Shown here: one piece after another, positions 10,157 to 64,000 of the stretch | How positions within the stretch are numbered: the stretch's first letter is position 1 | Layout: every line of letters begins with the position of its first letter | NCBI RefSeq assembly: GCF_001192835.1 | Contig: NZ_DF968182.1 | Span: 124,001 to 188,000 of the forward strand | Length of the DNA: 64,000 nt | Direction of reading: 5' to 3' | Source: Lentimicrobium saccharophilum | Lineage (GTDB): Bacteria; Bacteroidota; Bacteroidia; Bacteroidales; Lentimicrobiaceae | Notes under the pieces: generated by a model | Databases searched by the model: none | Told to the model about the DNA's origin: nothing | The model's input: the letters and a program-made list of their open reading frames with translations, nothing else | Made by a program: the position numbers and the translations under genes

Positions 10157-10163
10157 AAAGAAA

Positions 10164-10961
10164 ATGAAATCAAAATTATTATTGATTATGATCACCGGCC
10201 TGATGTTTCTGGCGGTTTCCTGCGGTAAGGATAACGAGGGAAATGACAATGACAAATCAGGCGTTTTACGTTTCAAAACCTACAATCCCCTTGCCGGCAA
10301 TCTTAAAATGCATCCTTTAAAGACTGTGGCAACGACAAATCCACCACTCACCGGGCCAACCACCGTTACCGAAACCACCAGCTTTATGCTCTGCGTGGGT
10401 GATGTGTGGGTTTCGCAAGGTGAAGTAAAAGCCGGACAGCCCGATAACCTGGTCTGGGAAAGGCTGACCACCGTGACCAACAAAGAACATATGCTCTTTG
10501 AGGATTACGCATTTTCGGATATTGAATTGCCGGCCGGCAGTTATAAAAGCATTAAACTGACATTCAGGAATGTTTTTTACCGGTATGCCAGGCTCGTGGC
10601 TGATCCTGCTGTGGCCTATGAGCTTCTTGAAACCATGGGCAGCTGGACATCTCCCTGCGACGAGAACGATACAACCTGGGCCATGACGAATTATTTCGGG
10701 CCGGACGGGAATCATATCCTGGGCAATGGGGGGACATTTGAACTGGTTTCGGAAGGAGAAAAACTCGGTGGGTTTACTATTGAAGAAGGCCGGGTGGCAA
10801 ATGTTACCTGGCGGCTGGGCGCCGGAGTTACTGAGCCCTGCACCACCTACCTGATAGATGAAAACAACAACCTTCAGTGGGACTGCGGCGTTGACCGCAT
10901 GGAATTTGAGTGCCCGCCGGATGCGGAGTATATGTGGGATTTTGTGATAGAATATCAATAA
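10164..10961 (+). CDS. Predicted lipoprotein of unknown function
   Basis: 265 residues. The N-terminus MKSKLLLIMITGLMFLAVSC is a lipoprotein signal with lipobox LAVSC (Cys20), followed by a low-complexity Asp/Asn/Gly linker (GKDNEGNDNDKSG), as in surface or periplasmic lipoproteins. The mature part is beta-rich and has an LPAGSYKSIKLTF segment (about residue 130), reminiscent of Ig-like domains such as DUF4382 that carry 'LPAGxY' turns, and several Cys residues. I do not recognise the family with certainty. It is a single gene with its own strong ribosome binding site and a clear terminator 66 bp after the stop. Confidence 0.82.
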   Translation: MKSKLLLIMITGLMFLAVSCGKDNEGNDNDKSGVLRFKTYNPLAGNLKMHPLKTVATTNPPLTGPTTVTETTSFMLCVGDVWVSQGEVKAGQPDNLVWERLTTVTNKEHMLFEDYAFSDIELPAGSYKSIKLTFRNVFYRYARLVADPAVAYELLETMGSWTSPCDENDTTWAMTNYFGPDGNHILGNGGTFELVSEGEKLGGFTIEEGRVANVTWRLGAGVTEPCTTYLIDENNNLQWDCGVDRMEFECPPDAEYMWDFVIEYQ

Positions 10962-11026
10962 AACCGACACATTCAGTTATTATCAGACTGATACCGTTAC
11001 AGACTGATAACCGATGATTTCTTACA

Positions 11027-11064
11027 GGCTTTCCGGTTTTTAAAGTATCCGGAAGGCCTTTTTT
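11027..11064 (+). terminator. Rho-independent terminator after the lipoprotein gene
   Basis: Stem GGCTTTCCGG (11027-11036) / CCGGAAGGCC (11049-11058), with one G-U pair and a 12-base loop, followed by TTTTTT (11059-11064). Confidence 0.85.
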
Positions 11065-11586
11065 ATGATTCTGGGGCGATTTGCCGGGAGATGTGTGTTT
11101 TTTCACACCAAACCACAAGCTGTTCCGGTTTACCGGGAAATACTCCGGACTTTGCCGGTTACCTTATAATTAAACCGATAGTTAAAGCTCAGATCCCCGC
11201 ATCTTTAAGGCTTTTTTGTGTTTTTTAACTTCATTGGATTTTTTATCAGCCGAAAGTCAGAAATCAAATCCCGGCATTTCAGATAACGAAACAGGCAGCC
11301 CAGGCGTTACATCCGCTATAAAAGACGCGCATATAATTTTGAAATTTCGCTGAAAATGCGTATCTTACGCTTTAATACATCTGCCCGTTCAGTGCGTCAG
11401 TTTGCAGGTGATTTATATGTTTCATTCTGCTGTTATTGAGGAATTGCAGACTCCCTGAATCCGTTTACCCGGTTTACTATCCGATCATCATAATTTCCGG
11501 CCTTTTCTTAAGGCAAACCCTTCCGTGTTACTCCTCCTTCATGATTCACCTGCGGCAGATGCAGTTGTTTCGTAAATCAGAAAAAT
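11065..11586. other. Intergenic region, nothing recognised
   Basis: About 520 bp with no supported gene. A short piece 'gaaacaggcagcccaggcg' near 11289 resembles the end of the long interspersed repeat. The promoter of the T9SS protein gene must lie here, but no convincing TAnnTTTG box was found. Confidence 0.5.
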
Positions 11587-11596
11587 GGAGGTAATC

Positions 11597-13489: not shown

Positions 13490-13788
13490 CGCTGACGGTA
13501 TTCTTCTGGTAAGTTGGCTTTTTAAGCGCGGAAGGTTTTGCCTCAGCGGGAGCGTTTTTGAACCACACCAGGCACGACCAGGCCCGGCCATTTTGTAAGG
13601 ATTGCGCATGCTTTCCGGACGAATGCCAGAGGCATCCCTCACCTCATCTGTCCTTAGTATATCTACTCCTGACTTCGGCTACGCTCAGCCACCAAAAGGA
13701 GAAGAACCAACCCGGTCAGTACGCGTCTTCCGACCGGCTCCGGCGCATCCTACGGACATCAAAAGAATCAAACCTGCATTAAGTAACC

Positions 13789-13917
13789 CACGCAAAGCCG
13801 CAACGACGCAATGATTATTTTGTAAACCCGAAATTCCTGACTTCCCTGCAAGGCCCGGCCACAACAATCAACGAACCGACCTAACAAGTCTTCTTTTCGA
13901 CTTGTTAGGTCTTCTTT
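13789..13917 (+). repeat. Hairpin repeat R2, copy 4
   Basis: Same order of pieces as copies 2 and 3 ('cgcaaagccgcaacgacgca', 'gaaattcctgacttc'), ending with the perfect stem GACCTAACAAGTC / GACTTGTTAGGTC at 13878-13911 and a T-rich tract. Confidence 0.85.
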
Positions 13918-13974
13918 TTCAACCTGATAACCCAATTATTGGGGAGGCATGTCAGCGCAAGCAGTTAACTTTCA

Positions 13975-14295
13975 ACTTTTTATCCGCTCAGGCCGCGGGG
14001 CCGCGCATTCGCAACGCGACTGCCTGTTTTTCTGTTGTACCAAGGTTAGGAAATGTAGTTTCTTTTAGATGAATTAGCGTACGAAAACCAGAAGGTCGCT
14101 TATGCGAATACTGAAAATTTTTGGCACTGCCTTGCGCTACTGGGATTGCAAGAAAATAAAAATTGAATTTCATTATGGTGGGCTTGTTTCCATTTCTATT
14201 GGTGATACTGTCAGGGAGAGGTGTTTAACATTACCATTGAATATATATTGAGATAAGACCGGCCTTCCAAAAATGGCGTTAAGAAAGCAGGCAGC
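13975..14295 (+). repeat. Interspersed repeat, copy 3: short MITE-like form
   Basis: From 14019 (CTGCCTGTTTTTCT) to 14295 the segment is bounded by inverted ends: the right end AAGAAAGCAGGCAG is the near-complement of the left. The interior matches copies 1 and 2 but lacks the 154-bp hairpin cassette; the sequence runs from 'ggtcgcttat' straight to 'gcgaatactg' at 14103/14104. The 5' flank 'atccgctcaggccgcggggcc' also occurs before the other copies. Confidence 0.7.
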
Positions 14296-15091
14296 GCGTA
14301 ATAAAGAAGAAACGCCTGCGATGGTGTTAGGTGATGCACGGGAGATTTTTGTACATCGGAATTCAGCAGCGGGAGGAAGTAACAACCTTCGTTTCTTCCA
14401 GCCAAAACGCTCGCCTGTTTTCAGCCATTTTTGGGAAGCCTTGACTTTTTGCTACTTTTTGGTCAAGCAAAAAGTAGAAGAAGTAAAAAATGATAATCCG
14501 TTGGGAATAAGTGATTATACGTGCGGACACGCTTCAACTTGTTAAGTCTTTTTTCTACTGATGTTCCATTCAATGGTTAGTGATGTCAGCACAAACTGTT
14601 GGCTTTCTTCTTTTTTTCCGCTCAGGCCGCGGGGCCTCGCATTCGCAACACGGCTGCCTAAACTTGACCATTGTTCATTTTTTAAGCTGGCCATTCATTC
14701 CTTTAAGTTTAAGTCTTTGAAGGTCAACTATAGAAGGCCGCTTTTCCTGTAATAAGCATAAAGAATGCTTATTCGTCTAAGAAAATTTAATTCAGTGATG
14801 GAAGTATCACTGAAACATTTTCTTAGACGGGATCAGCCCAACTAAATCAGGTAGTTCGCACCTGTTCCCAGTTGCTCCTACTGATTAAGTTGGGGTGTTG
14901 CGAAAGCTGAAATTTTTTCGCACTGCCTTACACTACTGGGATTACAAAGAAAAAGAAATTGAGTTTCATTATAGTGGGCTTCTTTCCATTTCTATTGTTG
15001 AAACTGTAAGGGAGAGGTGTTTAACAATACCACTGAATATAAATTGAGATAAGACCGGCCATCCAAAAATGGCGTAAAGAAAACAGGCAGC
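14256..15091 (+). repeat. Long interspersed repeat, copy 2
   Basis: The left part (14256-14659) matches 8571-9055, including the perfect hairpin CTACTTTTTG / CAAAAAGTAG (14452-14477). Bases 14660-14732 are replaced by unrelated sequence. The right part (14733-15091) matches 9115-9345 and then runs on to a terminal 'ggcgtaaagaaaacaggcag', giving the right end that copy 1 has lost. The segment 14653-15091 is again bounded by GGCTGCCT / AGGCAGCC. Confidence 0.75.
14746..14899 (+). repeat. Hairpin cassette inside the long repeat, copy 2 (154 bp)
   Basis: Same three hairpins as 9128-9281 at a constant offset of 5618 bp. H1 is identical (14751-14773). In the right arm of the outer H2 stem the central bases TA of copy 1 are AT here, which restores full complementarity there. 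The stems look better preserved than the loops. Confidence 0.75.
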
Positions 15092-49223: not shown

Positions 49224-50317
49224 GGCTGTAGTTTATAAGTGCGTTGCTTTTAACGTTTGATATTTCTCTCCAATTGTTCGGTATCTCGTAAGACTTAAAA
49301 GGTCAAGTGTTGTGTACTTTACGACTTCTTCTGTAGGTCTAAGCGAGCTCTTGACTGCTTGCTGTACTCTGTACCAGTTTAAATAGTTCTGAAGATATTT
49401 TGTGGAGACGCCCCAAAACGTTGAGTCAATCCACTTCTTCACTCGATTATGCAAAGAGTTTACGGTTTGTATGTGATAGATGCCATTCTTAACATATTGC
49501 TTAAGGTCTGCGCGTAGCACCACCAATGAAAGCTGGTTATCCTTGGCAAAGCCCTTATAGCTTACGTGCCCATCAGCGCATAGGATGGAGTCCTTTTCAA
49601 TTCGGTTCCCAATGGCGTTCTCGATGTCAGCTTTGCTGATGCGCCCGAGGGTGACCACCTTCATATCCATCGCCCCCTTACGGTCAGACGTCACGATTAC
49701 AGCCACCTAGTCTTTGGAAACACCTCTTGAAGAGGAGCTACCCCCTCGCTTGCGACCTTTCCTTGTTTGCTGTTCTTTCCCTTTTTCTGACAGCAAAAAG
49801 AATGTTTCGTCACTCTCAACAATCCCGTTGAAATCATCCTTCCTTACCTCTTCGAGAGAGGAAAGCACTTTATGACGCCAATCAAAGGCGGTTTTCTTGT
49901 TAATGCTCAGAGCAAACTTTATTTTATCCAATGACATGGACTTATGCATCAGTTCAAGGTAATCATTAACAAGCTCTTTCTTATGCAGACCAGCTAGCCA
50001 TGTGCCCGTGTACTCCGTAAATGTTCGACTGCAAGCTCTGCATTTAAAGCGTTGGCTGCCCTTATCCTTGCCAAATCTGTAAAACCTTAGGCTTCCGCAA
50101 TGAGGACAGCCAACCTGCTTGTTTATCAGTTGGTTTCTGCGTAATGATAGGTAGTCGGGGGCACTTTCGTTCCCCGTTAATTCTGCAATCAGGTTCGCCT
50201 GTTGGTGCGAGGGTAAGGCGCGAATGGCTGATAATATTTCTTGATAGTCCATTAGCAAGTAGTTTGAGCAAAGATAAACAATATTTTCATAATACAACGC
50301 TATTCTAAACTACAGCC
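49224..50317 (-). mobile_element. IS1595-family insertion sequence (1094 bp) with 8-bp target duplication
   Basis: Terminal inverted repeats of 23 bp with 20 matches: left starts GGCTGTAGTTTATAAG (49224), right end is its complement (50295-50317). The flanking target duplication is ATTAAAAA on both sides (49216-49223 and 50318-50325), the 8-bp size typical of IS1595. The single transposase gene runs on the minus strand and has an internal stop. Confidence 0.93.
49233..50252 (-). pseudogene. IS1595 (ISXO2-like) transposase broken by an amber stop
   Basis: Frame from ATG 50252 (MDYQEILSAIRAL). Zinc ribbon: CPHCGSLRFYRFGKDKGSQRFKCRAC, with both Cys pairs. The DDE part starts with VESDETFFLLSEKG. 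At 49707-49709 the codon after GVSKD is TAG, followed in the same frame by VAVIVTSDRKGAMDM, which suits a CAG (Gln) to TAG change. The rest (second Asp in ILCADGHVSYKGF, later NSLHNRVKKWIDSTFWGV) is intact. It is inactive unless the stop is suppressed. The opening hydrophobic stretch upstream of 50252 is probably not translated. Confidence 0.9.
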
Positions 50318-50809: not shown

Positions 50810-53800
50810 ATGAAACAAAAATTACTTGCGCTGATTTTGCTGAGTTTCTCTATTTCTCTGTTTGCACAGCCTCAGAAGGTTGCAATAGAAAATACGGAGA
50901 AGGGGATGAAACTTATGGTCAACAACCAGGGTTTCATGGTCAACGGCATCAACTGGGATTATTTCCCCATCGGGACCAACTATTCCTACAGTTTATGGAC
51001 CCAGTCCGACGACTTCATCAAACAGGCACTGGATGATGAAATGTCGCTGCTTAAAAACATGAATGTGAATGCCATTCGTGTTTACACGGGTATCCAGCCC
51101 AGGTGGATCACATACATTTATGAAAAGTATGGTATCTATACCATGCTTAACCATTCTTTTGGAAGATACGGGCTTACGCTCGACGGGGCCTGGGAAGGCA
51201 ATACCGATTATTCAGACCCCCGGGTAAAGGAACTTCTGCTAAAGGAAGTAACCGGACTGGTGCAGGAATATAAAGATACACCCGGCTTGTTACTTTACCT
51301 GCTGGGGAATGAAAATAACTACGGATTGTTCTGGCGCGGTGCCGAAACCGAAGATATCCCGATGGAAGACCGGGAATCTACCAGGATGGCCCGGTACCTT
51401 TATAAATTATTCAACGATGCTTCCGTGGCCATGAAGGCCATCGACCCACATCATCCCGTATCCATCTGCAACGGCGACCTCCTGTTTCTGGATATCATCG
51501 CGGAAGAATGTAAAGATGTGGATATATTCGGCATAAACGTTTACCGCGGCATTTCATTTACCGATCTTTTTGACAGGGTGAAGAAGGAATACGGGAAACC
51601 CGTTTTATTGACTGAATTTGGTTCTGATGCCTTTAACGCCATCACCATGGAGGAGGCGCAAAACGAACAGGCAATTTACAATGTTGCCAACTGGAAAGAG
51701 GTATATGAAAATGCGGCCGGAATGGGAAAAGCAGGCAATTCGCTGGGCGGGTTTACCTTTCAGTTCAGCGATGGCTGGTGGAAGTACGGGCAGACTGAAT
51801 ACCTTGATGTGCACGATTCCCATGCCTCATGGAGCAACGGTGGTTATTTGTTTGATTACAGGGCCGGCCAGAATAATATGAATGAAGAGTGGTTCGGAAT
51901 ATGTGCCAAAGGCCCGACCAATTCCAAAGGATTTTACCAGTTATATCCCAGGGCCTCCTATTATGCCCTCAAAGAAGCCCACCAATTGAATCCCTATGCC
52001 GAAGGCGTGAATTTACAAACCATACAGCAGCACTTTAACGGCATCCAGGTGGTGGAATCCCTCCTGAAGGCCAGGGGTGACAAGGCCGCGCTGGAAGGGG
52101 AAAAACTTAAAAAAATCAGCCTGAGCCGCTTAAGTGCGCAAAACACTACGTTTAACACCGGCGGCAGCCTGATTTCAACGCCCGATGTTGCCGATCCGAA
52201 TAACCCGGTCTTCCCGAATCAGCTGGGATTCGACCATATGCAGTCATTCTATGTTGGCGTAGCGGCGAATCCGTCAAGCAATTTCAGTGCCGATGTGGAA
52301 TTTAATGTGCTGGGCAATGTGGCGCTGAACCCGATTGATCAGATATTTTATGAAAACCGCGGACGTCCGGTAGAAGTAGGCGGGAGCAACGGAAATGTAA
52401 CCCTGGGTTCTGTCAACCGGGTTCAGGTTTACAAAGCCAGTTATCATTGGGATCACAAATTGTTCGATCTTAAGGGATTTTATCGCACGGGTCATTATCA
52501 CTGGGGGTATGAAGGCGACTTCTTTGGCCTTTATCCCGAAGCCAACTACGGACCCAATATCGACATTTACAATGGTATTGCGCCATTTGGATTTGAAATG
52601 GAAGGCAAGCAGATGTTCAGTGATTTTAAACTGGCATTCGGCCCGCAGCTCTGGTGGGGGGCCAACCCGGCTGTATTGCTGAAATACAGTAAAAGTGTTG
52701 CACATTTCAATTTTACCGGGATTTTTCATGAGGACCTTGCTCAGCTTGGGATGACGGAAAGTTCGTTTGCCATTCCGCAACCTAAAACCAGGCGGCTTAC
52801 CTTGTTTGTGAACAGGGAGTTCGGCAAATTCGGGGTCAATGCAGGAGGAATCTGGGCCGGTCAACCGCTTCAGGGCAGGGAATTCCAGGTAGTAAGGGGA
52901 GAAGAGGGGAATTACTCGGTTTATAAAGATGAAATCAAGGCACAGGATAATTTCGGAGGAAAGATAAAATTAACCTACAAGGGTGGAAGGTTTAACTGGT
53001 ATGCACAATCCGCGGTCATGGGCCTGGTGGCGCAGGGCGGTGCCGACCAGACACTGACATTCACCGGCTGGAGGTTAAAGGACAGCGGCAGCGGAAACCA
53101 GTATAATTTCCTGACCGGAGCTACCTATCTGATCGGAGATTTCCAGGTGGCGCCCAACTTCCTGTGGCAAAAGCCCATCGAAGGCCCGATCCCCGGAGAT
53201 GTACCGGCCCCGGGAAGGCCGAGAAACATCCTCGATGATCCTTTTGTGGTAAGGGCTAACAGGGAGCAGATTGCCGGTGAGATTTTATTCACTTACGATC
53301 CGACACCCGGTACCTGGATGTACAACTGGGACAGCGACCGTTCGGAAGATGCTGAACTTGCCGTGAGCTTAGGCTTTGTTTACAGGCATTTGCCAACCAC
53401 CCAGGACGCTGCCATCGGAATTCTGCCCGATGGGCGTACCACATTTGCGTTTCCGGGAGCCGCACCTGCCAATGATTTATGGGAGATCCACTCCAGACTG
53501 GTTTCGAAGGTAAGCAGCGATTTTGGCTTTATTGCAAACATATATGCCGGGGATGCCCAGGCCAACGGCAGCGATGCCAGGTTGATCAGGCGCTACGGGA
53601 TTGATTTGCGGATGATTTTCAAGGAAGTAAAACTCACTTCATTTGCCAGAATCAACGACTGGGGCCCTTACGACTATCACCGCGATTACAACCTGACCTT
53701 CCCGCTTCAGCTGATGGCCGATATTTCTACCTCTCTGAAAAAACCTGACTGGTTTGAGCTTCCGAACACTGAAATCGGACTGCGGGCAACTTACCGTACA

Positions 53801-53944
53801 CTCGACCGGTATTCTCCCCGTTACGCGCCAACTTACAAGCCTGATGCAAGCGGAGCCCTGGTGCCCGATCCCGAAGCCGTCGGTTTTGACAATGGCAATG
53901 AATGGGAGATCAGAACCTATGTACGCATTAATATTGGTAAATAA
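50810..53944 (+). CDS. Clan GH-A glycosidase with C-terminal beta-barrel-like domain
   Basis: 1044 residues. Signal peptide 1-19 (LFAQ end). Residues ~40-400 are a (beta/alpha)8 glycosidase of the GH2/GH5 kind: acid/base Glu168 in LLYLLGNENN and nucleophile Glu269 in KPVLLTEFGSDAF, with aromatic substrate residues in FQFSDGWWKYG. No GH2 jelly-roll is seen. From ~450 to the end the chain is beta-rich with alternating aromatic strands (KLAFGPQLWWGANPAVLLKYS, VKLTSFARINDWGPYDYHRD, EWEIRTYVRINIGK), as in outer-membrane barrels. No family name can be given with confidence. It heads the operon, 15 bp before the lipoprotein gene. The likely substrate is a beta-glucan (inference from neighbours). Confidence 0.75.
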   Translation: MKQKLLALILLSFSISLFAQPQKVAIENTEKGMKLMVNNQGFMVNGINWDYFPIGTNYSYSLWTQSDDFIKQALDDEMSLLKNMNVNAIRVYTGIQPRWITYIYEKYGIYTMLNHSFGRYGLTLDGAWEGNTDYSDPRVKELLLKEVTGLVQEYKDTPGLLLYLLGNENNYGLFWRGAETEDIPMEDRESTRMARYLYKLFNDASVAMKAIDPHHPVSICNGDLLFLDIIAEECKDVDIFGINVYRGISFTDLFDRVKKEYGKPVLLTEFGSDAFNAITMEEAQNEQAIYNVANWKEVYENAAGMGKAGNSLGGFTFQFSDGWWKYGQTEYLDVHDSHASWSNGGYLFDYRAGQNNMNEEWFGICAKGPTNSKGFYQLYPRASYYALKEAHQLNPYAEGVNLQTIQQHFNGIQVVESLLKARGDKAALEGEKLKKISLSRLSAQNTTFNTGGSLISTPDVADPNNPVFPNQLGFDHMQSFYVGVAANPSSNFSADVEFNVLGNVALNPIDQIFYENRGRPVEVGGSNGNVTLGSVNRVQVYKASYHWDHKLFDLKGFYRTGHYHWGYEGDFFGLYPEANYGPNIDIYNGIAPFGFEMEGKQMFSDFKLAFGPQLWWGANPAVLLKYSKSVAHFNFTGIFHEDLAQLGMTESSFAIPQPKTRRLTLFVNREFGKFGVNAGGIWAGQPLQGREFQVVRGEEGNYSVYKDEIKAQDNFGGKIKLTYKGGRFNWYAQSAVMGLVAQGGADQTLTFTGWRLKDSGSGNQYNFLTGATYLIGDFQVAPNFLWQKPIEGPIPGDVPAPGRPRNILDDPFVVRANREQIAGEILFTYDPTPGTWMYNWDSDRSEDAELAVSLGFVYRHLPTTQDAAIGILPDGRTTFAFPGAAPANDLWEIHSRLVSKVSSDFGFIANIYAGDAQANGSDARLIRRYGIDLRMIFKEVKLTSFARINDWGPYDYHRDYNLTFPLQLMADISTSLKKPDWFELPNTEIGLRATYRTLDRYSPRYAPTYKPDASGALVPDPEAVGFDNGNEWEIRTYVRINIGK

Positions 53945-53959: not shown

Positions 53960-55816
53960 ATGAAAACGAACATACTCATCAGTTTGAAGAATTATATCCC
54001 CATAATTTTTCTTGCAGCACTTTTTATGGGGTGCGAACGCGATCTGCCCGACCTGAAACCCGTCACATTCCCGGATAATCCCGAGGTTTTTATTGACGGA
54101 TTCACTGCGGGGCTGAACTATGCGGCTTTCGGGGGTTCTGTGCCTACCGCTTTTGATGTGGATAAAAAAGAAACGTACAACAATTCAGCAGCTTCCATGC
54201 GGTTTGATGTCCCCAATGCAGGCGATCCCCGTGGCGCTTATGCGGGTGGCGTATTCTTTACCGGAACAGGCAGAAACCTGACAGGCTATAATGCTTTGAC
54301 GTTCTGGGCAAAAGCTTCTCAATCTGCGGTGATTGATGTGGTTGGTTTTGGTAACGACCTTGGAGCCTCAAAGTACCAGGTGACTATACCAGGATTGCAG
54401 ATAAGTACCAACTGGCAGAAATACATCATTCCGCTGCCCAATGCTTCTGTGCTCACCGCTGAACGCGGGATGTTTTATTACTCAACAGGGCCTGTCGATG
54501 GCAAAGGATATTCTTTCTGGGTGGATGAACTGAAGTTTGAAAACCTGGGAACCATCGCCCATCCGCAGTTCAGCATCCTCAACGGTCAGAATCAGGATGA
54601 AACATCATTTGTTGGAGTGGAGAAAACAATAACGGGGCTTAGCGCTGTATTTAACCTGCCTACCGGTATCAACCAGGCGGTAAATATTGCGCCTGCATAT
54701 TTTGAATTCACATCATCAAATCCTTCAATTGCAACCGTCGATGAATCAGGTAAGGTACTGGTTAACGGTGGTCCGGGCGTGGCCCTTATCACTGCAAAAG
54801 TCGGGGATGCCGAGGTTAACGGTTCTTTAACCATCAGGTCACAGGGGGTATTTCAGCTTGCTCCGGTTCCCACCCGGCCGGCTGAGAATGTAATTTCTGT
54901 TTTCAGCAATGCTTATCCCAATGTACCGGTGAATTATTACAACGGTTACTGGGAGCCATATCAGACGACGCTTTCAGCCGATTTTGAAGTGGATGGGGAT
55001 CAGGTACTGAATTATACCAACTTTAATTTTGTTGGGATTGAATTCAGTTCTCCTACCATTAATGCTTCTGCGATGACGCATCTGCATGCAGACATATTTA
55101 TTCCGAATGCCTTAACAGGAAATGCCCAGATGCGTTTTGAACTGGTTGATCTTGGAACAACCGTCAGCGGTACTTTCACCACAACCATCACGCCGGGCCA
55201 ATCGCAGCAATGGATCAGCCTGGATATTCCCTTGTCGGGCTTTGCAGGTCTGAGCGCAAGAAACAATCTCGGACAACTTATTTTTGTGGATGGCAATGAA
55301 AACATATCAAGCTTCTATGCCGACAATATTTATTTTTACAAGGATGGCTCCCAGCCATCATCACCGGCAACAGCAGCTCCGGTACCCACTCACCCGGCTG
55401 CCAATGTAACCAGCGTTTTCAGCGATTCATACACGGCAATTCCCGGCACCGACCTCAATCCGTTCTGGGGACAGGCAACGGTTGTTACAACGGTACAAAT
55501 TCAGGGGAATAACACCCTGAAATTTGCCGGCCTCAACTATCAGGGGATACAATTAGGTGCCAGCCAGAATGTCTCTTCTATGGGATTTCTGCACCTGGAT
55601 TTCTGGACCGCGAATTCATCGGTACTGAGTGTCTTTCTGATTAGTCCGGGCCCCGTTGAAACCCCTTATACATTAACGGTTCCCACTTCCGGCTGGAGCA
55701 GCATCGACATTCCGCTCTCATCCTTTGCCCCGGTGGATTTGAACGATGTTATCCAACTCAAATTTGAAGGTAATGGAGATATCTACCTGGATAACATTTA
55801 TTTCCGGAAAAACTAA
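53960..55816 (+). CDS. Surface lipoprotein with carbohydrate-binding and Big-2-like domains
   Basis: 618 residues. Lipobox ALFMGC (Cys25) followed by ERD, an acidic context often seen with surface lipoproteins. Residues ~45-200 form a CBM-like beta-sandwich (FIDGFTAGLNYAAFGGS ... SFWVDELKFENLG). A Big-2 Ig domain spans ~205-295 (ILNGQNQ ... PSIATVDESGKVLVNGGPGVALITAKVG). Two further repeats follow, each opening APVPTRPAENVISVFSNAY or APVPTHPAANVTSVFSDSY and ending with YADNIYFYKDG / YLDNIYFRKN, i.e. two tandem sandwich units. Probable glycan-binding protein of the system, taking the place a SusE/SusF-like or SGBP protein would have. It follows the fusion gene by 15 bp. Confidence 0.82.
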   Translation: MKTNILISLKNYIPIIFLAALFMGCERDLPDLKPVTFPDNPEVFIDGFTAGLNYAAFGGSVPTAFDVDKKETYNNSAASMRFDVPNAGDPRGAYAGGVFFTGTGRNLTGYNALTFWAKASQSAVIDVVGFGNDLGASKYQVTIPGLQISTNWQKYIIPLPNASVLTAERGMFYYSTGPVDGKGYSFWVDELKFENLGTIAHPQFSILNGQNQDETSFVGVEKTITGLSAVFNLPTGINQAVNIAPAYFEFTSSNPSIATVDESGKVLVNGGPGVALITAKVGDAEVNGSLTIRSQGVFQLAPVPTRPAENVISVFSNAYPNVPVNYYNGYWEPYQTTLSADFEVDGDQVLNYTNFNFVGIEFSSPTINASAMTHLHADIFIPNALTGNAQMRFELVDLGTTVSGTFTTTITPGQSQQWISLDIPLSGFAGLSARNNLGQLIFVDGNENISSFYADNIYFYKDGSQPSSPATAAPVPTHPAANVTSVFSDSYTAIPGTDLNPFWGQATVVTTVQIQGNNTLKFAGLNYQGIQLGASQNVSSMGFLHLDFWTANSSVLSVFLISPGPVETPYTLTVPTSGWSSIDIPLSSFAPVDLNDVIQLKFEGNGDIYLDNIYFRKN

Positions 55817-55857: not shown

Positions 55858-56691
55858 ATGAATAAAATCAATAAATTCAGGAGAATACGCATTCATTCCG
55901 CACTGCTGCTGTTTGCGGTTATTTTATGGGGATGCGAACGCGACAACTTCCAGAAACTGGATGAGCGCAACTGGCAGATAACCTGGAGCGACGAATTTAA
56001 TGGCCAGGCCGGGCAGTCGCCGGATGCAGCAAAATGGACCTTTGATCTGGGCACCGGTCAGGACGGCTGGGGCAACAGCGAATTGCAGAGTTATACCAAC
56101 AGTCCTGCTAACATCTCGCTTGATGATCAGGGGAATCTGGTAATTACTGCCATTAACGAAGGCAACCGATTTACCTCAGCGAGGATTAAGACGCAGGGTT
56201 TGTTTGCCCAGCAGTACGGGCGTTTTGAGGCTCGTATAAAAACACCTTACGGGCCCGGTATATGGCCCGCCTTCTGGATGCTGGGCGAAAATATTGAAAC
56301 GGTTCCCTGGCCCGGATGCGGTGAAATTGATATCATGGAACTCCGCGGACAGGAGCCTCACATCATCCACGGTACCATTCATGGCCCGGGATATTCGGGC
56401 GGAAACCCGGTAACCGGAAGTTATGCACTCCTTAACGACAGGTTTGATGCCGATTTTCACCTTTATGCCATTGAGTGGGATAAAGACAAGATTGACTTTT
56501 TTGTGGATGATTATCTCTATCAGCGCATCGAACGCGGTGATGTGCCCGGTGAATGGGTTTACGATCAGCCGTTTTTTATCCTGCTCAATGTAGCGGTCGG
56601 TGGTAATTATGTGGGATTTCCCACTGCCCAGACCCCCTTCCCTCAGAAAATGTACATTGATTATGTAAGGGTTTACCAGGAGGTTAAATAG
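55858..56691 (+). CDS. GH16 endo-beta-1,3-glucanase (laminarinase-like) lipoprotein
   Basis: 277 residues. Lipobox LWGC (Cys26), again followed by ERD. The rest is one GH16 domain: the catalytic motif GEIDIMELRG has nucleophile Glu156, Asp158 and acid/base Glu161 (ExDxxE), the four-residue signature with the extra Met of laminarinase-type GH16. Other markers: WGNSELQSYTN, GPGIWPAFWMLGE and HLYAIEWDKDKIDFFVDD. It cuts internal beta-1,3 (or mixed) glucan bonds, probably on the cell surface or in the periplasm. It starts 41 bp after the lipoprotein gene. Confidence 0.95.
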   Translation: MNKINKFRRIRIHSALLLFAVILWGCERDNFQKLDERNWQITWSDEFNGQAGQSPDAAKWTFDLGTGQDGWGNSELQSYTNSPANISLDDQGNLVITAINEGNRFTSARIKTQGLFAQQYGRFEARIKTPYGPGIWPAFWMLGENIETVPWPGCGEIDIMELRGQEPHIIHGTIHGPGYSGGNPVTGSYALLNDRFDADFHLYAIEWDKDKIDFFVDDYLYQRIERGDVPGEWVYDQPFFILLNVAVGGNYVGFPTAQTPFPQKMYIDYVRVYQEVK

Positions 56692-56736: not shown

Positions 56737-59700
56737 ATGAATAAAGCTTATCCTGAAAACCCAATGAATTTTACCGGTAAGTCAATTGAAATGCAGGTAG
56801 TTGAACATGAAAATGAAAGCTACTTTAAAATTTCAGATCATGATCTGATGCGGCCGTTCTTTATGAGCATCGTCAGTGACTCCAACCACTGGATGTTTAT
56901 AGCAAGCAACGGAGGACTCACTGCCGGGCGGAAGAACCCTGAACTTTCCTTGTTCCCTTATTATACCGATGACAAAATAATAGAATCGGCTGATATTACC
57001 GGAAGCAAATCCGTGTTTCAAATACGGGCAGACGATCAGATTTATGTATGGGAGCCTTTTTCCGAAAGGTTTACCGGTAAGTATTCCATCAGCCGTAACC
57101 TTTACAAAAACATCTATGGCAATAAAATCATCTTCGAAGAAATCAACCATGATTTCGGGCTGATATTCAGGGTTCAGTGGAATTCGTCGAAGGTGTATGG
57201 TTTTGTAAAAAAGTCGGCACTGGTCAACACTTCGGACAATGATTACAAAATCACCCTGCTGGATGGTTTGCAGAATATCATGCCTTACGGGGTTCCCAGC
57301 GACCTGCAGCGATCAACCAGCAACCTGGTAGATGCCTACAAGAGAAGTGAACTGGAGCCGGAATCAGGAACCGGTATTTTTGCCCTCAGCGCCATTATTG
57401 TTGATAAAGCCGAACCCAGCGAAGCGCTGAAAGCGAACATTGCCTGGTCGCTGGGGCTGGATCATCCCAAACACCTGCTCTCATCCCTTCAGCTGGATCA
57501 TTTCAGGCAGGGCGGAGCGATCTCGGAAGAAACGGATATTAAAGGGGAGAAGGGAGCATATTTTGTTTGTGAGGGAATTCTGCTGCCTGCCCGAAATGAG
57601 AAAAACTGGAAACTCATCGCCAACGTCAATCAGAATCACGCGCAGATCATCAGCCTGTGTCAGGAAATTAAAAACGTTGCGGATCTTGAATTAAAGATTC
57701 AGGAAGATATCGATTCCGGAACGCAAAAAGTGATTGAACTGGTTGCAAGTGCCGACGGGTTACAGTTTACTGCTGACAAACTCACCGATTCCCGCCATTT
57801 TTCCAATGTCCTGTTCAACATTATGCGTGGGGGCATCTTTGATAATGGTTATCTGATTAAAAAAGAGGATTTTGTCAGTTACCTTTTGAAGGCCAACCGG
57901 GAGGTTGTGAGCCGGAATCAGGAAACAATCGATGAACTTCCTTATAATTTCAGCCGGTCGGCGTTGCAAAACAGTGTGTCCGGTATTGATGATGCTGACC
58001 TGATAAGGCTTTCTTCGGAATATCTTCCGTTGAAGTTCAGCCGCAGGCATGGCGATCCCAGCCGCCCGTGGAATTATTTTACCATCAATATTCAGCATGA
58101 AACTGACGGATCAGAAATTCTGGATTATGAGGGGAACTGGAGGGATATTTTCCAGAACTGGGAAGCGCTGGCGCTTTCATATCCTGAATTTGTTACCGGT
58201 ATGATCTTCAAGTTTCTGAACGCTTCAACATTCGACGGTTACAATCCCTACAGGATTACAAAAGACGGTTTCGACTGGGAAACCATCGAACCCGATAATC
58301 CATGGTCTTATATCGGATACTGGGGTGATCATCAGATTATTTACCTGCAGAAATTCTTTGAAATCGCTGAAAAATTCCGCCCCGGCACATTGCAGTCACT
58401 TCTTGACAAAGAATGGTTTGTTTATGCCGCAGTCCCATACAGGATCAAGCCTTACGACCAGATTCTGAAGAATCCGAAAGATACCATTGAGTTTGATCAT
58501 AAATGGGACGATGCGATCAGAAAAAACCGTGAATCACTTGGAGCCGACGGCGCATTGCTTTCCGACAGTAACCGGAATATCTGTCATGTGAATTTCACCG
58601 AAAAGGTACTGGCCACCGTGCTGGCTAAAATGTCAAACTTTATACCTGAGGCCGGAATCTGGATGAACACCCAGCGCCCGGAGTGGAACGATGCCAACAA
58701 CGCCCTGGTCGGCAATGGCGTTTCAATGGTTACGCTTTACTATCTGCACCGCTTCTTAGAGTTTTTCCGGAATATTCTGGATAAGACCGGAACAGAAAGC
58801 GTGAAGATTTCGGAGGAATTGACTGATTTTTATCATTCGCTGAATAATACCCTTCTGGAATTCAGCCCATTGCTGACAAACGGCATCACTGACCAGGACA
58901 GAAAAGTGATGCTTGACCGTCTTGGATGGGCTGCATCCGGCTACCGTCAGCGTATTTATAACAACGGTTTTAAAGGCACCAGGCAAAGCATCTCCCTTGA
59001 AGGGCTGAAGAAGTTTACCATTGTTTGCCTTGATTTCATTGAACAATCCATCCGTGTTAACAAAAGGTCAGACAATCTGTATCATGCTTACAATCTGATG
59101 CATGCCACCGAAACCTCGGTTTCCTGTTCTCATCTTTCTGAAATGCTCGAAGGCCAGACGGCGGTGTTAAGTTCGGGTTATTTAACTTCTGAGCAGGCGC
59201 TGGAAGTATTGGATGCACTCAAAAGCAGTGCCCTGTTCCGCGATGATCAGTACAGTTACATTTTGTACCCTAATAAAAAGCTGCCCGGATTTTTAGAGAA
59301 GAACAATATTCCACCCCTCAGGGCGCGGGAATCAGCGCTGATTAAGCGACTGATTGCCGATGGAAATACGGAGATTGTTGAGCGTGACGTGCTGGGAGGC
59401 TTGCATTTCAACGGTAATTTCAAAAATGCCGCTGACGTGAATGCAGCGCTGAACAGGCTGTCTGAAGGTGTTTACCGTGAGTTGGCCGAGCGGGAGCGTA
59501 AGCTGGTTCTTGACATCTTTGAAGAAGTATTCAATCACAAAGCTTTTACAGGCAGGTCGGGCACTTTTTATTCCTATGAAGGGCTGGGATCAATCTACTG
59601 GCATATGGTTTCGAAACTGCACCTGGCCGTGCAGGAATGTTGCCTGAAAGCCATTGAAACCGGCGCTGATAAAAAAGTTATTGGCAGATTACTGGATCAC

Positions 59701-60189
59701 TATTACGAGATCGAAGCGGGCATCGGCGTGCATAAATCTCCCGGGCTTTACGGGGCCTTTCCAACTGATCCCTATTCGCACACCCCGAGACACAGGGGGG
59801 CGCAGCAACCCGGTATGACCGGGCAGGTTAAGGAAGATATTCTGGTCAGATTTGGCGAATTGGGGGTGTTCGTCAATGAAGGAAGACTTTCATTCAAACC
59901 CCGTCTGCTCAGGAAGGATGAGTTTCTCCAACAGGAGGGCATATTTAAATACAGAAAATGTAACGGCGGCACCGGAGAAATAAAACTTGCTCCCGGGCAG
60001 CTGGCCTTTACCTGTTGTCAGACCCCTGTAATCTATTTTCTTTCAGCAAACGATGCGATTACTGTCTTTTACGCCAACGGTGACAAAACAGAAACTGAAG
60101 GCAATGTCCTGAGTCAGGAAATCAGCAGCCTGATATTCAGAAGAACCGGTGAAATAGAAAAGGTTGAAGTATCAATAAATAATAAGTGA
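56737..60189 (+). CDS. Cytoplasmic beta-1,3-glucan phosphorylase-like enzyme (GH94/GH149/GH161 type)
   Basis: 1150 residues, no signal peptide, so cytoplasmic. The N-terminal ~300 residues are a beta-sandwich (for example SNHWMFIASNGGLTAGRKNPELSLFPYYTDD), followed by a linker and an (alpha/alpha)6-like catalytic domain; this order is the GH94-type phosphorylase plan. The general acid is likely Asp652 in RPEWNDANNAL, the equivalent of the DWND Asp of cellobiose phosphorylase. The length fits the GH149/GH161 oligo-beta-1,3-glucan phosphorylases. It would convert imported beta-1,3-oligosaccharides and phosphate to glucose 1-phosphate. It is coupled to the transporter gene by a one-base stop/start overlap (TGATG). 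I cannot tell which of the three families it belongs to. Confidence 0.75.
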   Translation: MNKAYPENPMNFTGKSIEMQVVEHENESYFKISDHDLMRPFFMSIVSDSNHWMFIASNGGLTAGRKNPELSLFPYYTDDKIIESADITGSKSVFQIRADDQIYVWEPFSERFTGKYSISRNLYKNIYGNKIIFEEINHDFGLIFRVQWNSSKVYGFVKKSALVNTSDNDYKITLLDGLQNIMPYGVPSDLQRSTSNLVDAYKRSELEPESGTGIFALSAIIVDKAEPSEALKANIAWSLGLDHPKHLLSSLQLDHFRQGGAISEETDIKGEKGAYFVCEGILLPARNEKNWKLIANVNQNHAQIISLCQEIKNVADLELKIQEDIDSGTQKVIELVASADGLQFTADKLTDSRHFSNVLFNIMRGGIFDNGYLIKKEDFVSYLLKANREVVSRNQETIDELPYNFSRSALQNSVSGIDDADLIRLSSEYLPLKFSRRHGDPSRPWNYFTINIQHETDGSEILDYEGNWRDIFQNWEALALSYPEFVTGMIFKFLNASTFDGYNPYRITKDGFDWETIEPDNPWSYIGYWGDHQIIYLQKFFEIAEKFRPGTLQSLLDKEWFVYAAVPYRIKPYDQILKNPKDTIEFDHKWDDAIRKNRESLGADGALLSDSNRNICHVNFTEKVLATVLAKMSNFIPEAGIWMNTQRPEWNDANNALVGNGVSMVTLYYLHRFLEFFRNILDKTGTESVKISEELTDFYHSLNNTLLEFSPLLTNGITDQDRKVMLDRLGWAASGYRQRIYNNGFKGTRQSISLEGLKKFTIVCLDFIEQSIRVNKRSDNLYHAYNLMHATETSVSCSHLSEMLEGQTAVLSSGYLTSEQALEVLDALKSSALFRDDQYSYILYPNKKLPGFLEKNNIPPLRARESALIKRLIADGNTEIVERDVLGGLHFNGNFKNAADVNAALNRLSEGVYRELAERERKLVLDIFEEVFNHKAFTGRSGTFYSYEGLGSIYWHMVSKLHLAVQECCLKAIETGADKKVIGRLLDHYYEIEAGIGVHKSPGLYGAFPTDPYSHTPRHRGAQQPGMTGQVKEDILVRFGELGVFVNEGRLSFKPRLLRKDEFLQQEGIFKYRKCNGGTGEIKLAPGQLAFTCCQTPVIYFLSANDAITVFYANGDKTETEGNVLSQEISSLIFRRTGEIEKVEVSINNK

Positions 60190-61541
60190 TGAGCGACAAC
60201 GCCGCGAAATTGTCCATTAAGGAAAAAATCGGTTATGGTCTGGGTGATACAGCCTCCCACTTTGTGTGGGACATGGTTGGCTTCTGGATTTTGATTTTTT
60301 ACACCGATACCTTTGGAATATCCGCGGCTGCCGCCGGAACGATTATGCTCATTGCGCGTTTCTGGGATATGGTCAGCGATCCTATTATGGGTGTAATCGC
60401 TGACAGGACCAGCACCCGATGGGGGAAGTTTCGTCCCTATCTGCTTTGGATGGCGCTCCCATACAGTGTGCTGGCTGTGCTGACTTTTTCCACCCCCGAT
60501 TTAGGAGATACCGGAAAAGTTATTTATGCCGGGGTTACCTACTTGCTGCTGATGACCGTTTTTACGGCCATCAACCTGCCTTATTCGTCGCTGGGCGCTG
60601 TCATGACGTCCGACTCTTATGAAAGGGCCGGGTTAAATTCGTACCGTTTTATTTTTGCCTTTGTGGGTCAGTTTATCGTTACCGGAACTGCGCTTTACCT
60701 GGCCAGCTACTTTGGCAAGGGCGATAATGCCAAGGGATATCAATACACCCTGATGCTGTTTGCAGCCATCAGTTTTGTGCTGTTTATCATCACCTTCAAA
60801 ACCACAAAAGAAAGGGTAAAACCTCCGGCTGAACAACAAAAAAATCTCAGGCAGGACCTTAAGAATCTTTTCAGGAACCGGCCCTGGGTGGTTCTTTTCT
60901 TTGTAGGCATTGTTTCGTTTGTCATGTTTGCCCTGCAGAACCTATCGATTGCTTATTACTTCAAGTATTACATCGGGCAGGAACAAAACGTGCAGATGTT
61001 TAATGTAATCGGCACCGTTGCGCTGATACTCGGAATTCCCTTTTCAAAACCACTGGCACAGAAGTTTGGGAAGCGCAATGTTTACATAGCCAGTTCACTG
61101 ATCTCCGGCCTGTTTTTCATTCTGCTGTATCTTCCGGGCAGCCAGAATATCTATGGGATTTATATTCTGAACATTCTGGCCAAATTCACCTATGCCCCTG
61201 CCGTGCCGCTGCTTTGGACCATGCTTGCCGATACTGCCGATTATTCCGAATGGAAATTCGGACGGCGTGCGACCGGTCTGGTGTTTTCGGCAGCCACTTT
61301 TGCACAAAAGGCAGGATGGGGAATCGGCGGCGCGCTGGCAGGCTGGTTACTGGTGCTGTTTCAATTTGTCCCCAATATAGAGCAGTCGGCCACCTCCCTG
61401 AACGGGATCAAGCTGATGATTTCTGTGTTTCCCGGAGTGCTCTATATGTCGGTTGCCATTCTTCTGTATTTCTATGCCATTGACCATAAAACCTGCCTGC
61501 TGATGCAGCAGGATCTGGAACAGCGGAGAAAAGAATCGTAA
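60189..61541 (+). CDS. GPH-family (MelB-like) sugar:cation symporter
   Basis: 450 residues from ATG 60189; the upstream in-frame GTG at 60186 is an alternative. Twelve hydrophobic helices can be traced. Near the N-terminus the GPH signature KIGYGLGDTASHFVWDMVGFWILIFYTDTFG, and the loop DPIMGVIADRTSTRWGKFRPYLLW (between helices 2 and 3) with Asp/Arg/Lys residues of the cation-coupling site. The second half opens LKNLFRNRPWVVLFFVGIVSF. It imports oligo-glucosides with Na+ or H+ across the inner membrane and sits between the phosphorylase and a GH17 gene, so laminari-oligosaccharides are the expected substrate. Confidence 0.93.
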   Translation: MSDNAAKLSIKEKIGYGLGDTASHFVWDMVGFWILIFYTDTFGISAAAAGTIMLIARFWDMVSDPIMGVIADRTSTRWGKFRPYLLWMALPYSVLAVLTFSTPDLGDTGKVIYAGVTYLLLMTVFTAINLPYSSLGAVMTSDSYERAGLNSYRFIFAFVGQFIVTGTALYLASYFGKGDNAKGYQYTLMLFAAISFVLFIITFKTTKERVKPPAEQQKNLRQDLKNLFRNRPWVVLFFVGIVSFVMFALQNLSIAYYFKYYIGQEQNVQMFNVIGTVALILGIPFSKPLAQKFGKRNVYIASSLISGLFFILLYLPGSQNIYGIYILNILAKFTYAPAVPLLWTMLADTADYSEWKFGRRATGLVFSAATFAQKAGWGIGGALAGWLLVLFQFVPNIEQSATSLNGIKLMISVFPGVLYMSVAILLYFYAIDHKTCLLMQQDLEQRRKES

Positions 61542-61576
61542 AACCATTGAAACCATCTGTTATGCAATCCGGAAAA

Positions 61577-62866
61577 ATGAAAAAAAATTATAATGTAGTC
61601 GGGAATTTGCTGCATTTCCTGATTTTAGGTGTGTCGGTTCTCCTGTTTGCTTCATGCTCGCAAAAAATCGTAAGCACCGGCAAAACTGCCGCTGAGATAT
61701 TGGGAGATCCAAATTATCAGGCCATCTCCTATGGAGGGTATCGCGAATTATCGAGAGATATACAGCCAACCATTCCCCAGCTGAAGGAAGACATGAAAAT
61801 TCTGTCTGCCATGGGAATCAAGCTTGTTCGAACCTATAATGTTTACTACGACGAAGCAGCCAATCTGCTGGAAGCCATCAGTCAGTTAAAAAAAGACGAT
61901 CCGGAATTTGAAATGTACATTATGCTTGGTGCGTGGATAGACTGTAAAAATGCCTTTACCAAACTGCCCGACCGGATCAGAAACGAAGAGAGTCCCGAAA
62001 ATAAGAAGGAAATCAGCCGCGCTGTTGAGTTGACACAACAATATCCTGATATCGTTAAGATTATTGCAGTCGGTAATGAAGCCATGGTACACTGGGCGTG
62101 GGAATATTACGTTGAGCCCGGTATCATCCTTAAATGGGTAAAGTATTTGCAAAAACTGAAGAAAGTCGGGGATTTACCTGAGAATTTATGGATTACAAGT
62201 TCCGACAATTTTGCATCCTGGGGCGGCGGCGGGAGCGAGTACCACCTGGAGGAACTGAACGAACTCATCCGTTCGGTTGATTATATTTCAATGCACACCT
62301 ACCCCATGCACGACACCCATTACAATCCTGATTTCTGGGGAGTGCCCGAAGAGGAAGAAGGATTGTCAGATATGGAAAAAACAGATGCAGCGATGATCAG
62401 GGCAAGGGATTATGCCATTGCTCAATACGAAAGTGTTGTCGCCTATATGCAACGTCTGGGTGTAGATAAGCCCGTTCACATCGGCGAAACCGGCTGGGCA
62501 ACCCAATCCGACGGCTTTTACGGCCATGACGGTTCCCGGGCGTGCGACGAATATAAATCAGCGGTTTATCACGATCTGATGCGCACCTGGACAGACTCAA
62601 AAGGGATAACCTGTTTTTATTTCGAGGCGTTTGACGAACAATGGAAAGATGCGGCAAATCCGCGGGGTTCAGAAAACCACTTCGGGCTGATTAACCTGCA
62701 ATCTCAGGCTAAGTATACCTTGTGGGATATGGTGGATGCCGGTGTTTTTGATGGGTTAACCCGCGACGGCAAACCCATCACCAAAACATTTGATGGCGAT
62801 AAAGCTGCAATGATGCAGGAAGTGAAAGTGCCGCCAACCGCAAAAGAAATCAGTGAGCGCAAGTAA
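61577..62866 (+). CDS. GH17 beta-1,3-glucanase-like lipoprotein
   Basis: 429 residues from ATG 61577; other in-frame ATGs at 61547 and 61562 are possible, but MKKNYN... gives the best lipoprotein n-region. Lipobox LFASC (Cys27). The GH17 fold is clear: YGGYRELSRDIQPTIPQLKEDM, MGIKLVRTYNVYYD, acid/base Glu168 in IIAVGNEAMVHW, nucleophile Glu304 in VHIGETGWATQSDG, and a CFYFEAFDEQWKD strand near the end. It probably acts on beta-1,3-glucan chains outside the inner membrane, as exo- or endo-enzyme; the mode cannot be fixed. Confidence 0.92.
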   Translation: MKKNYNVVGNLLHFLILGVSVLLFASCSQKIVSTGKTAAEILGDPNYQAISYGGYRELSRDIQPTIPQLKEDMKILSAMGIKLVRTYNVYYDEAANLLEAISQLKKDDPEFEMYIMLGAWIDCKNAFTKLPDRIRNEESPENKKEISRAVELTQQYPDIVKIIAVGNEAMVHWAWEYYVEPGIILKWVKYLQKLKKVGDLPENLWITSSDNFASWGGGGSEYHLEELNELIRSVDYISMHTYPMHDTHYNPDFWGVPEEEEGLSDMEKTDAAMIRARDYAIAQYESVVAYMQRLGVDKPVHIGETGWATQSDGFYGHDGSRACDEYKSAVYHDLMRTWTDSKGITCFYFEAFDEQWKDAANPRGSENHFGLINLQSQAKYTLWDMVDAGVFDGLTRDGKPITKTFDGDKAAMMQEVKVPPTAKEISERK

Positions 62867-62881: not shown

Positions 62882-64000
62882 ATGAAGGCAGCTGCAAAAC
62901 ATTTGTTCTTTTACTTTCTCATAATCATCCTGATGAGTAGTTGTAATAATCCGAAACCATTGGAAGTTGAAATTTTTGAGACATCGGCAAACGGAAATCA
63001 ACTCACCAGATTGACTGAATTCCCGGATTCTGAGATAAAAGCGGAAATTTCCATATTGCCTGAGCAGGAATTTCAGTCAATCGTGGGTTTCGGGGGTTCC
63101 TTTACCGAAGCTTCTGCCCACTTGCTCAACCGGGTAAGCAAGGAAAACCGGAACAGAGTCCTGGAAGCCTATTTTGGTGAATCCGGGGCCCGCTATTCCC
63201 TCACGCGCACCCACATGAACTCCTGCGATTTTTCACTGGGCAACTACTCTTATGCCCCTGTGGATGGAGATATGGAACTGCTTCATTTTTCCGTAAAGGA
63301 AGATATGGATGACATCATTCCCATGATCAAAGATGCCCAGGCCATTTCGAAGGAGGGTTTTAATATTATCTCGTCTCCCTGGACCGCGCCGCCCTGGATG
63401 AAAGACAACAAGGACTGGCGCGGCGGAAAACTGTTGCCGGAATATTATAACACCTGGGCGTTGTTCTTTTCAAAATATCTGGACGCTTATCGAGCTGAAG
63501 ACATAGATATATGGGGAGTTACGGTTGAAAACGAACCATTGGGCAACGACAGCAACTGGGAAAGCATGCACTACACGCCTCATGAAATGACGGAATTTGT
63601 TAAAAATCATCTGGGACCAAGATTGAAATCTGAGGGGCGTAATGTAAAAATTCTGGGATTTGACCAGAATCGTGATGAACAGTTAAAAATTTGGGTGGAT
63701 GTTATGTTCGGTGACGAAATTGCCGGGGATTATTTCGATGGAACTGCAGTGCACTGGTATGCCAGCACCTTTGAGTATTTCCCCGAAGCTTTGCAGTATG
63801 TTGTAAATAAAGCTCCCGGTAAGCATTTGATTAACACGGAAGCCTGCGTTGATGCACAGGTGCCGAGGTGGAAAGATGATGCCTGGTACTGGTCGGAGGA
63901 AGCCACCGACTGGGGTTGGACCTGGGCCCCCGAAGACCAGAAATACCTGCACCCGAAATATGTTCCTGTATACCGGTACGCACGCGATATCATCGGATGC
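62882..64000 (+). CDS. GH30 glucosidase-like lipoprotein, 3' end beyond window
   Basis: 373 codons are seen from ATG 62882, open to the last base. Lipobox LMSSC (Cys21). The GH30 barrel starts FQSIVGFGGSFTEASAHLL; acid/base Glu218 is in WGVTVENEP and nucleophile Glu320 in HLINTEACVDA. Bacterial GH30_3 enzymes cleave beta-1,6-glucan bonds, others are glucosylceramidases; with GH16 and GH17 next to it the beta-1,6 side chain of laminarin is a likely target, but the subfamily cannot be told without the C-terminus. It lies 15 bp after the GH17 gene. It was missed by simple frame calls only because it has no stop in the window. Confidence 0.9.
   Translation, partial: MKAAAKHLFFYFLIIILMSSCNNPKPLEVEIFETSANGNQLTRLTEFPDSEIKAEISILPEQEFQSIVGFGGSFTEASAHLLNRVSKENRNRVLEAYFGESGARYSLTRTHMNSCDFSLGNYSYAPVDGDMELLHFSVKEDMDDIIPMIKDAQAISKEGFNIISSPWTAPPWMKDNKDWRGGKLLPEYYNTWALFFSKYLDAYRAEDIDIWGVTVENEPLGNDSNWESMHYTPHEMTEFVKNHLGPRLKSEGRNVKILGFDQNRDEQLKIWVDVMFGDEIAGDYFDGTAVHWYASTFEYFPEALQYVVNKAPGKHLINTEACVDAQVPRWKDDAWYWSEEATDWGWTWAPEDQKYLHPKYVPVYRYARDIIGC

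Follow-up and report, generated by a model that had tools for sequence, protein, structure and literature searches.

Explanations of large-glycan import through the outer membrane in the bacterial group to which Lentimicrobium saccharophilum (Bacteroidota) belongs have, to our knowledge, rested almost entirely on SusCD. SusC is TonB-dependent. Clan GH-A glycoside hydrolases (GH), outer-membrane beta-barrels and beta-glucan loci are each already known. GH149 loci with and without susCD pairs have been reported in Bacteroidetes (PMC5827456), and the statements of that paper on GH149 loci do not mention the protein described here, in which a clan GH-A glycosidase is fused to a predicted 24-strand outer-membrane beta-barrel. 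The fusion is encoded in a 64,000-nucleotide stretch of L. saccharophilum (contig NZ_DF968182.1, positions 124,001 to 188,000; hereafter the window). Its domain content, predicted barrel fold, conservation and operon partners were computed, as was a swap with SusCD in one family. We propose, with a probability of roughly 0.6, that the fusion is the outer-membrane entry step of a SusCD-less utilisation locus for beta-1,3-glucan of the laminarin type, its 24-strand barrel being a substrate-selective pore and its enzyme a periplasmic glucanase that cuts at the pore exit.

The two halves of the fusion protein

The open reading frame (ORF) described in an earlier note, made from the DNA letters alone, is present with the same boundaries (Table 1). 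A genome scan returned 368 stretches encoding relatives, of which the best 80 were kept and read (hereafter the 80 loci). Their hosts include Lentimicrobium, Flavobacterium, Chryseobacterium, Cloacibacterium, Halpernia, Saprospiraceae, Lewinella, Balneolaceae and others, with numerous metagenome bins among them; the fusion is thus maintained in many environmental bacteria. Judged by sequence comparison, the fusion is not a product of chance, as the aligned relatives are 64–94% identical to the window protein across its whole length; a chance or assembly-error fusion was ruled out by the presence of the same fusion in many genomes. At the level of the order, the full protein was matched at E 1e-5 in 17 of 198 genomes, counting that of the window; three other matches were full-length (73–81% identity), one was a contig-end fragment and the rest covered the enzyme half only. 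In a phylum sample the barrel was matched in 35 of 395 genomes, fragments included. No barrel without the enzyme was found among the 36 barrel matches, 33 of which lie in frames of 1028–1084 residues and three of which are fragments (G431, G401 C23 and G316). The G316 locus (L155, 2223-3617) encodes the enzyme, then about the first tenth of the barrel, then GH149, and the protein has a signal peptide of the ordinary type. Some loci retrieved by different searches appear to be the same contigs (L168/L087, L170/L095, L003/L025 and L005/L038), and counts from different searches were not summed. Alignments A3 and A6 use 58 and 73 of the 80 loci, respectively, the rest being cut, near-identical or missed by pattern.

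The enzyme half matches Pfam Glyco_hydro_2_C (4.6e-7). Sequence similarity to GH158 is weak, with an E value of 0.0059 for the single sequence and of 5.7e-5 for the family profile against 6pal (BuGH158). Foldseek placed GH158 beta-1,3-glucanases first (E 1.3e-12), and in VIA-align the structures of GH157, GH158, GH5 and GH2 tie within about 2 Z units, near 26. With the full-length model, the best 50 VIA-align matches were all to the enzyme, this one domain filling the list. N167, E168 (codon 51311-51313) and E269 (codon 51614-51616) do not vary in any of the 59 aligned proteins, namely the window protein and those of 58 of the 80 loci. In the alignment, N167/E168 and E269 coincide with the GNE and TEWG motifs of BuGH158, whose catalytic residues are N136, E137 and E220 (PMC7157763). 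The half thus combines a TIM-barrel fold with the NE acid/base and E nucleophile positions of clan GH-A, in line with the TIM-barrel hydrolase with E168 and E269 that the earlier note had recognised. It is predicted to cut beta-1,3-glucan, the probable substrate.

No Pfam family matches the C-terminal half, even at E 10. AlphaFold2 models were obtained for the full-length protein (59 sequences; predicted local distance difference test, pLDDT, 70.6; predicted TM-score, pTM, 0.51) and for residues 411-1044 alone (74 sequences; pLDDT 75.2; pTM 0.73). Both contain the same 24 main strands of 5–18 residues each, counted from DSSP with short extra hairpins within loops left out. When the 411-1044 model was compared by VIA-align, the best 50 of 994 aligned chains were all membrane beta-barrels, including AlgE, OprD-type porins, MOMP, Wzi, FimD, LamB, chitoporin, BtuB and the mitochondrial SAM barrel; AlgE, an alginate exporter, is the best single structural match among those listed. 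Foldseek agrees, with BtuB and further TonB-dependent transporters among its top matches. With an N-terminal signal peptide and a closed barrel in the models, the C-terminal half is predicted to be an outer-membrane beta-barrel, much as the earlier note had surmised from its alternating strands. It does not fall into two familiar classes: the fusion protein has no Plug domain match by Pfam and 24 strands rather than the 22 of SusC and other TonB-dependent transporters, and the type V autotransporters known to us have a C-terminal barrel of 12 strands. Its last strand (residues 1029-1042) is, we assume, a candidate for recognition by BAM. A looser search for distant kin of the barrel in the 395 genomes yielded weak additions only; the best match (E 0.011), an 885-residue ORF resembling a TonB-dependent receptor by eye, was rejected as within chance for 395 genomes.

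The loops of the predicted barrel alternate between long (mean 23.4 residues) and short (mean 5.4 residues), a pattern familiar from known barrels, and none of 20,000 permutations gave as strong an alternation. The presumed lumen face is more conserved than the lipid face (p 1.7e-6; strand ends were those of the model except for three that were shifted manually, and faces were assigned by hydrophobicity, ambiguously in strands 1, 4 and 19). Outer-membrane barrels usually vary most in their long loops, but here these loops are more conserved than the turns. A conserved lumen face together with conserved long loops is more in keeping with a selective pore than with a plain anchor.

Gene neighbourhood and exchange with SusCD

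A lipoprotein with CBM11-like domains adjoins the fusion in 80 of 80 loci, at most 500 bases downstream. GH16 is encoded in 76 of the 80, and in the remaining four (L063, L075, L083 and L097) the contig ends before it. The other partners are GH149 (59 loci), GH17 (50), GH30 (43) and an MFS relative (52), which is close to the symporter of the window in 11 only. The lipoprotein copy of the window has sub-threshold domain matches only; among 19 aligned members, Big_2 was detected in 15 and CBM_11 in nine, and a search of the PDB with the lipoprotein profile returned partial Ig-like matches only. At least 4 kb were available on both sides of the fusion in 58 of the 80 loci.

Table 1. Fusion gene, its parts and the genes downstream, in positions of the window
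Feature	Positions	Strand	Basis or remark
Fusion gene: GH-A glycosidase and predicted 24-strand outer-membrane beta-barrel	50810..53944	+	1044 residues, ATG start
Signal peptide, residues 1-20, ending LFAQ, without lipobox	50810..50869	+	sequence reading
Clan GH-A TIM-barrel catalytic domain, residues 22-400	50873..52009	+	Pfam, profile match, structure comparison
N167-E168, putative acid/base pair	51308..51313	+	invariant 59/59; aligned with GNE of BuGH158
E269, putative nucleophile, in TEFG	51614..51616	+	invariant 59/59; aligned with TEWG of BuGH158
Linker, residues 401-435, two predicted helices	52010..52114	+	full-length AlphaFold2 model
Predicted 24-strand beta-barrel, residues 436-1042 (about 607 residues)	52115..53935	+	AlphaFold2 models, fold searches, loop test
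Final barrel strand, residues 1029-1042, candidate BAM recognition strand	53894..53935	+	barrel model
Predicted surface lipoprotein, CBM11-like and Big_2-like domains, SGBP-B-like	53960..55816	+	aligned members
GH16 beta-glucanase lipoprotein, predicted surface	55858..56691	+	domain match, lipobox
GH149 beta-1,3-glucan phosphorylase	56737..60189	+	NF058639, 1758.6 bits (cut-off 1150)
GPH/MFS_2 sugar:cation symporter, inner membrane	60186..61541	+	domain match
GH17 family enzyme	61547..62866	+	domain match
GH30 enzyme, continuing beyond the window end (completed in L135)	62882..64000	+	domain match

Three SusD queries from the window's own genome matched none of the 80 fused loci; SusC queries matched one, and other receptor queries two more. 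The genome of L. saccharophilum itself has 34 Plug and 10 SusD matches, none of which falls within the window (C1:124001-188000), so that the earlier remark that no SusCD is present there stands. The adjacent susC and susD genes by which a SusCD polysaccharide utilisation locus is recognised are likewise missing from the window. Elsewhere in this genome, a SusD gene (C1:626908; L134) adjoins an apparent GH30 gene, and the two may belong to a second glucan locus, one that has SusCD; the many matches of query L134 were dropped, as the longest ORF of that locus is GH30 and not SusD.

When the enzyme half alone was used as the query, close relatives were found in frames of about 450 residues. In family f140 the enzyme is present in nine of 11 genomes, five times as a stand-alone protein and four times fused. 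SusD was detected in four of the five stand-alone loci, three of which also have SusC: in L153 and L166, SusC, SusD, GH16 and GH149 occur together with the enzyme, and in L154/L157 they share its contig at a distance of about 12 kb. In L164, SusD, GH16 and GH149 were found on a contig whose start falls within the locus, and L165 is a 6-kb contig without SusD. No close CBM11-like lipoprotein was matched in the stand-alone loci of f140, the partial matches (31–35%) in L158 belonging to another protein. All four fused loci of this family have the lipoprotein and none has SusCD. The enzymes also differ in their export signals: no lipobox was found by pattern in 59 fused proteins, whose signal peptides are ordinary (G527, in L176, was excluded because the contig cuts the protein start), whereas the signal of stand-alone enzymes with a complete start ends at a cysteine in 11 of 11 by eye and in seven of 11 by the strict pattern. 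In f140, a lipid anchor and SusCD thus take the place of an absent barrel. The best evidence for the barrel doing the work of SusC is this swap, and the barrel appears to stand in for the usual SusCD import machinery. The suggestion of the earlier note that the barrel serves in place of SusCD thereby gains comparative support (SusD in none of the 80 fused loci against four of five stand-alone loci). In the tree, stand-alone enzymes nest within a fused clade of Balneolota, which suggests that the split of enzyme from barrel is secondary; the root is uncertain, with the outgroups and S152 on long branches.

Other features surround the locus. Just upstream of the fusion gene, two adjoining ORFs on the minus strand (49233-50297) encode an IS1595-type transposase, with a zinc ribbon at 49707-50297 and a DDE domain at 49233-49706. 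Beyond the window, the locus extends in L135 (2422-5742 and 14781-17477) with a second symporter-like gene and a GH17-like gene, next to which another GH17-like gene was recognised by eye. L135 also encodes a large protein resembling a sensor-regulator with a weak LuxR-type end, and a protein of 2111 residues (8358-14693; C1:194357-200692) with about six near-identical CBM-like repeats. These repeats are related to the domains of the lipoprotein, and by eye the protein ends in what looks like a type IX sorting tail. In the ORF that precedes it, a stretch reads N.

Membrane side and alternative readings

Both ends of the modelled barrel lie on the short-turn, periplasmic side, which would place the enzyme on the periplasmic side of the membrane. 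A second indication comes from acidic residues after the lipid cysteine, which resemble the lipoprotein export signal described in PMC5080379. With the cysteine as +1, acidic residues were scored at +2 to +4; rows in which the pattern gave no lipobox (47 of 248) were excluded. Over the 80 loci, such residues occur in 131 of 139 CBM11-like lipoproteins and GH16 enzymes and in six of 62 GH17 and GH30 enzymes. They thus sharply separate predicted surface from predicted periplasmic lipoproteins of one locus. By eye, stand-alone relatives of the fused enzyme have them in four of 11 cases, and in one of five within f140. The stand-alone set differs from the surface set (p 6e-6); f140 alone differs from the surface set (p 1e-4) and not from the periplasmic set (p 0.43). 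Topology and the acidic-residue comparison together favour a periplasmic enzyme.

Pore activity, substrate, periplasmic side and ratchet are what we infer from these data. The surface lipoprotein would bind the glucan and the surface GH16 would cut it into pieces, which would enter the pore of the barrel. The GH158-like N-terminal glucanase would hang from the periplasmic side of the barrel and cut the pieces at the pore exit. Such cutting may stop them from slipping back, as a hydrolytic ratchet, and could pull the chain inward; alternatively, the cut pieces may be handed to GH17 and GH30. The symporter would then import the products and GH149 would phosphorolyse them.

Several observations weigh against this proposal. 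Foldseek TM-scores for the barrel are only 0.2–0.4, the full-length pTM of 0.51 leaves the relative placing of the two halves uncertain, and many loops have pLDDT below 50. Strands 4 and 5 have the presumed lipid face as the more conserved one, strands 1, 4 and 19 are nearly without alternation, and the sequence searches gave no relative of the barrel whose function is known. Weak or partial matches to TonB-dependent receptors lie near three of the 80 fused genes (L021, L061 and L076), and other SusCD pairs in the genome could serve the locus from a distance. In family f148 the enzyme is alone in seven of seven cases, with no SusCD in three contexts of 15–20 kb, and barrel loss is therefore not always matched by a nearby SusCD. 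The acidic residues of the stand-alone enzymes also differ from those of the periplasmic set (p 0.04). Lastly, the description of BuGH158 from Bacteroides uniformis as a predicted enzyme of the cell surface points to the other side of the membrane (PMC7157763).

We consider it unlikely that the enzyme is displayed at the cell surface, threaded through or across the mouth of a barrel that is mainly an anchor, as in EstA-like autotransporters. In its favour, a helix (residues 414-432) precedes the first strand, acidic residues stand beside the lipid cysteine in four of the 11 stand-alone relatives, and BuGH158 is predicted to be at the cell surface. Surface display would leave unexplained the position of both barrel ends on the short-turn side and the selective-pore-like conservation of lumen and long loops; in f140, moreover, barrel loss is accompanied by SusCD, a transport system, and not just by a lipid anchor. 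The autotransporter barrels known to us have 12 strands, half the number predicted here.

That the barrel is a TonB-energised transporter with the enzyme half in place of the plug is improbable. The Foldseek matches to BtuB and other TonB-dependent transporters and the TonB dependence of SusC, which it seemingly replaces, speak for this; the strand number (24, not 22), the lack of a plug domain by Pfam and a TIM barrel that seems too wide for the lumen speak against it. Export of glucan by the enzyme–barrel pair, after the manner of AlgE or PgaA with their hydrolases, is very improbable: AlgE is indeed the best single structural match, but the genes that accompany the fusion are catabolic (GH16, the phosphorylase GH149, the symporter, GH17, GH30 and the CBM-like lipoprotein), related loci without the barrel have SusCD, and the scan of 13 window ORFs gave no glycosyltransferase match. 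A string of soluble beta-sandwich domains, the alternative raised in the earlier note and one for which the lack of a Pfam family leaves room at the level of sequence, is scarcely credible and was dropped, since the two AlphaFold2 models share 24 strands, the best 50 of 994 chains aligned with the model of residues 411-1044 are all membrane barrels, so that the refuting check named in the earlier note did not go against the barrel, and the loop-length and face-conservation tests point the same way.

Comparison with known systems

No description of a glycosidase fused to an outer-membrane pore and replacing SusCD was found among the listed titles and abstract starts of open-licence PMC papers. 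The nearest published ideas are an inner-membrane fusion of Formosa and a cellulose locus of Cytophaga hutchinsonii, both compared below. There is a fair chance that the fusion deserves a class of its own. The fuller proposal of a separate class of importer, a 24-strand plug-less pore with a covalent periplasmic glucanase that achieves one-way uptake by exit cutting, independently of SusCD and perhaps also of TonB, in Bacteroidota and Balneolota alike, is tentative, and we put it somewhat short of even odds. If true, an enzyme-bearing pore that replaces SusCD would be a second solution to glycan import, in hosts that live on beta-1,3-glucan from algae and fungi, through which much carbon flows. 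It would also make testable whether hydrolysis at the exit of a pore can replace TonB energy, a question for which natural pairs of fused and split relatives are ready comparisons.

With GH158 (BuGH158, 6pal; GH158(Pro), 9oro) the fusion shares the TIM barrel, the GNE and TE(F/W)G positions and a beta-1,3-glucan locus. It differs in its weak sequence match (E 5.7e-5 by profile), GH157, GH5 and GH2 tying structurally, and in having a predicted outer-membrane barrel where BuGH158 has a C-terminal Ig-like domain (PMC7157763). The closed outer-membrane barrel fold is shared with the 24-strand usher FimD and the porins AlgE, OprD and LamB, at 6–11% identity in the matches listed; the scanned neighbours include no gene for a pilus or for alginate. 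The MFS-GH17 fusion FbGH17b of Formosa (PMC6246565) likewise unites a glucanase and a transporter in one protein for laminarin; as described there, it belongs to the inner membrane, whereas the fusion in the window is predicted to lie in the outer membrane and has other folds in another domain order. The atypical cellulose locus CHU_1276-1280 of Cytophaga hutchinsonii (PMC12016534) is also SusCD-less and includes a predicted beta-barrel, CHU_1276, alongside CHU_1279, which is SGBP-B-like and has a CBM11-like domain. Its substrate is cellulose, and the account of this locus reports no enzyme–barrel fusion. The SusC/SusD system resembles the present one in pairing a barrel with a lipoprotein and in its occurrence in GH16/GH149 loci without the fused barrel; the fusion departs from it in having 24 strands, no plug found, no SusD, a partner lipoprotein with CBM11-like and Big_2-like domains, and an enzyme within the pore protein itself.
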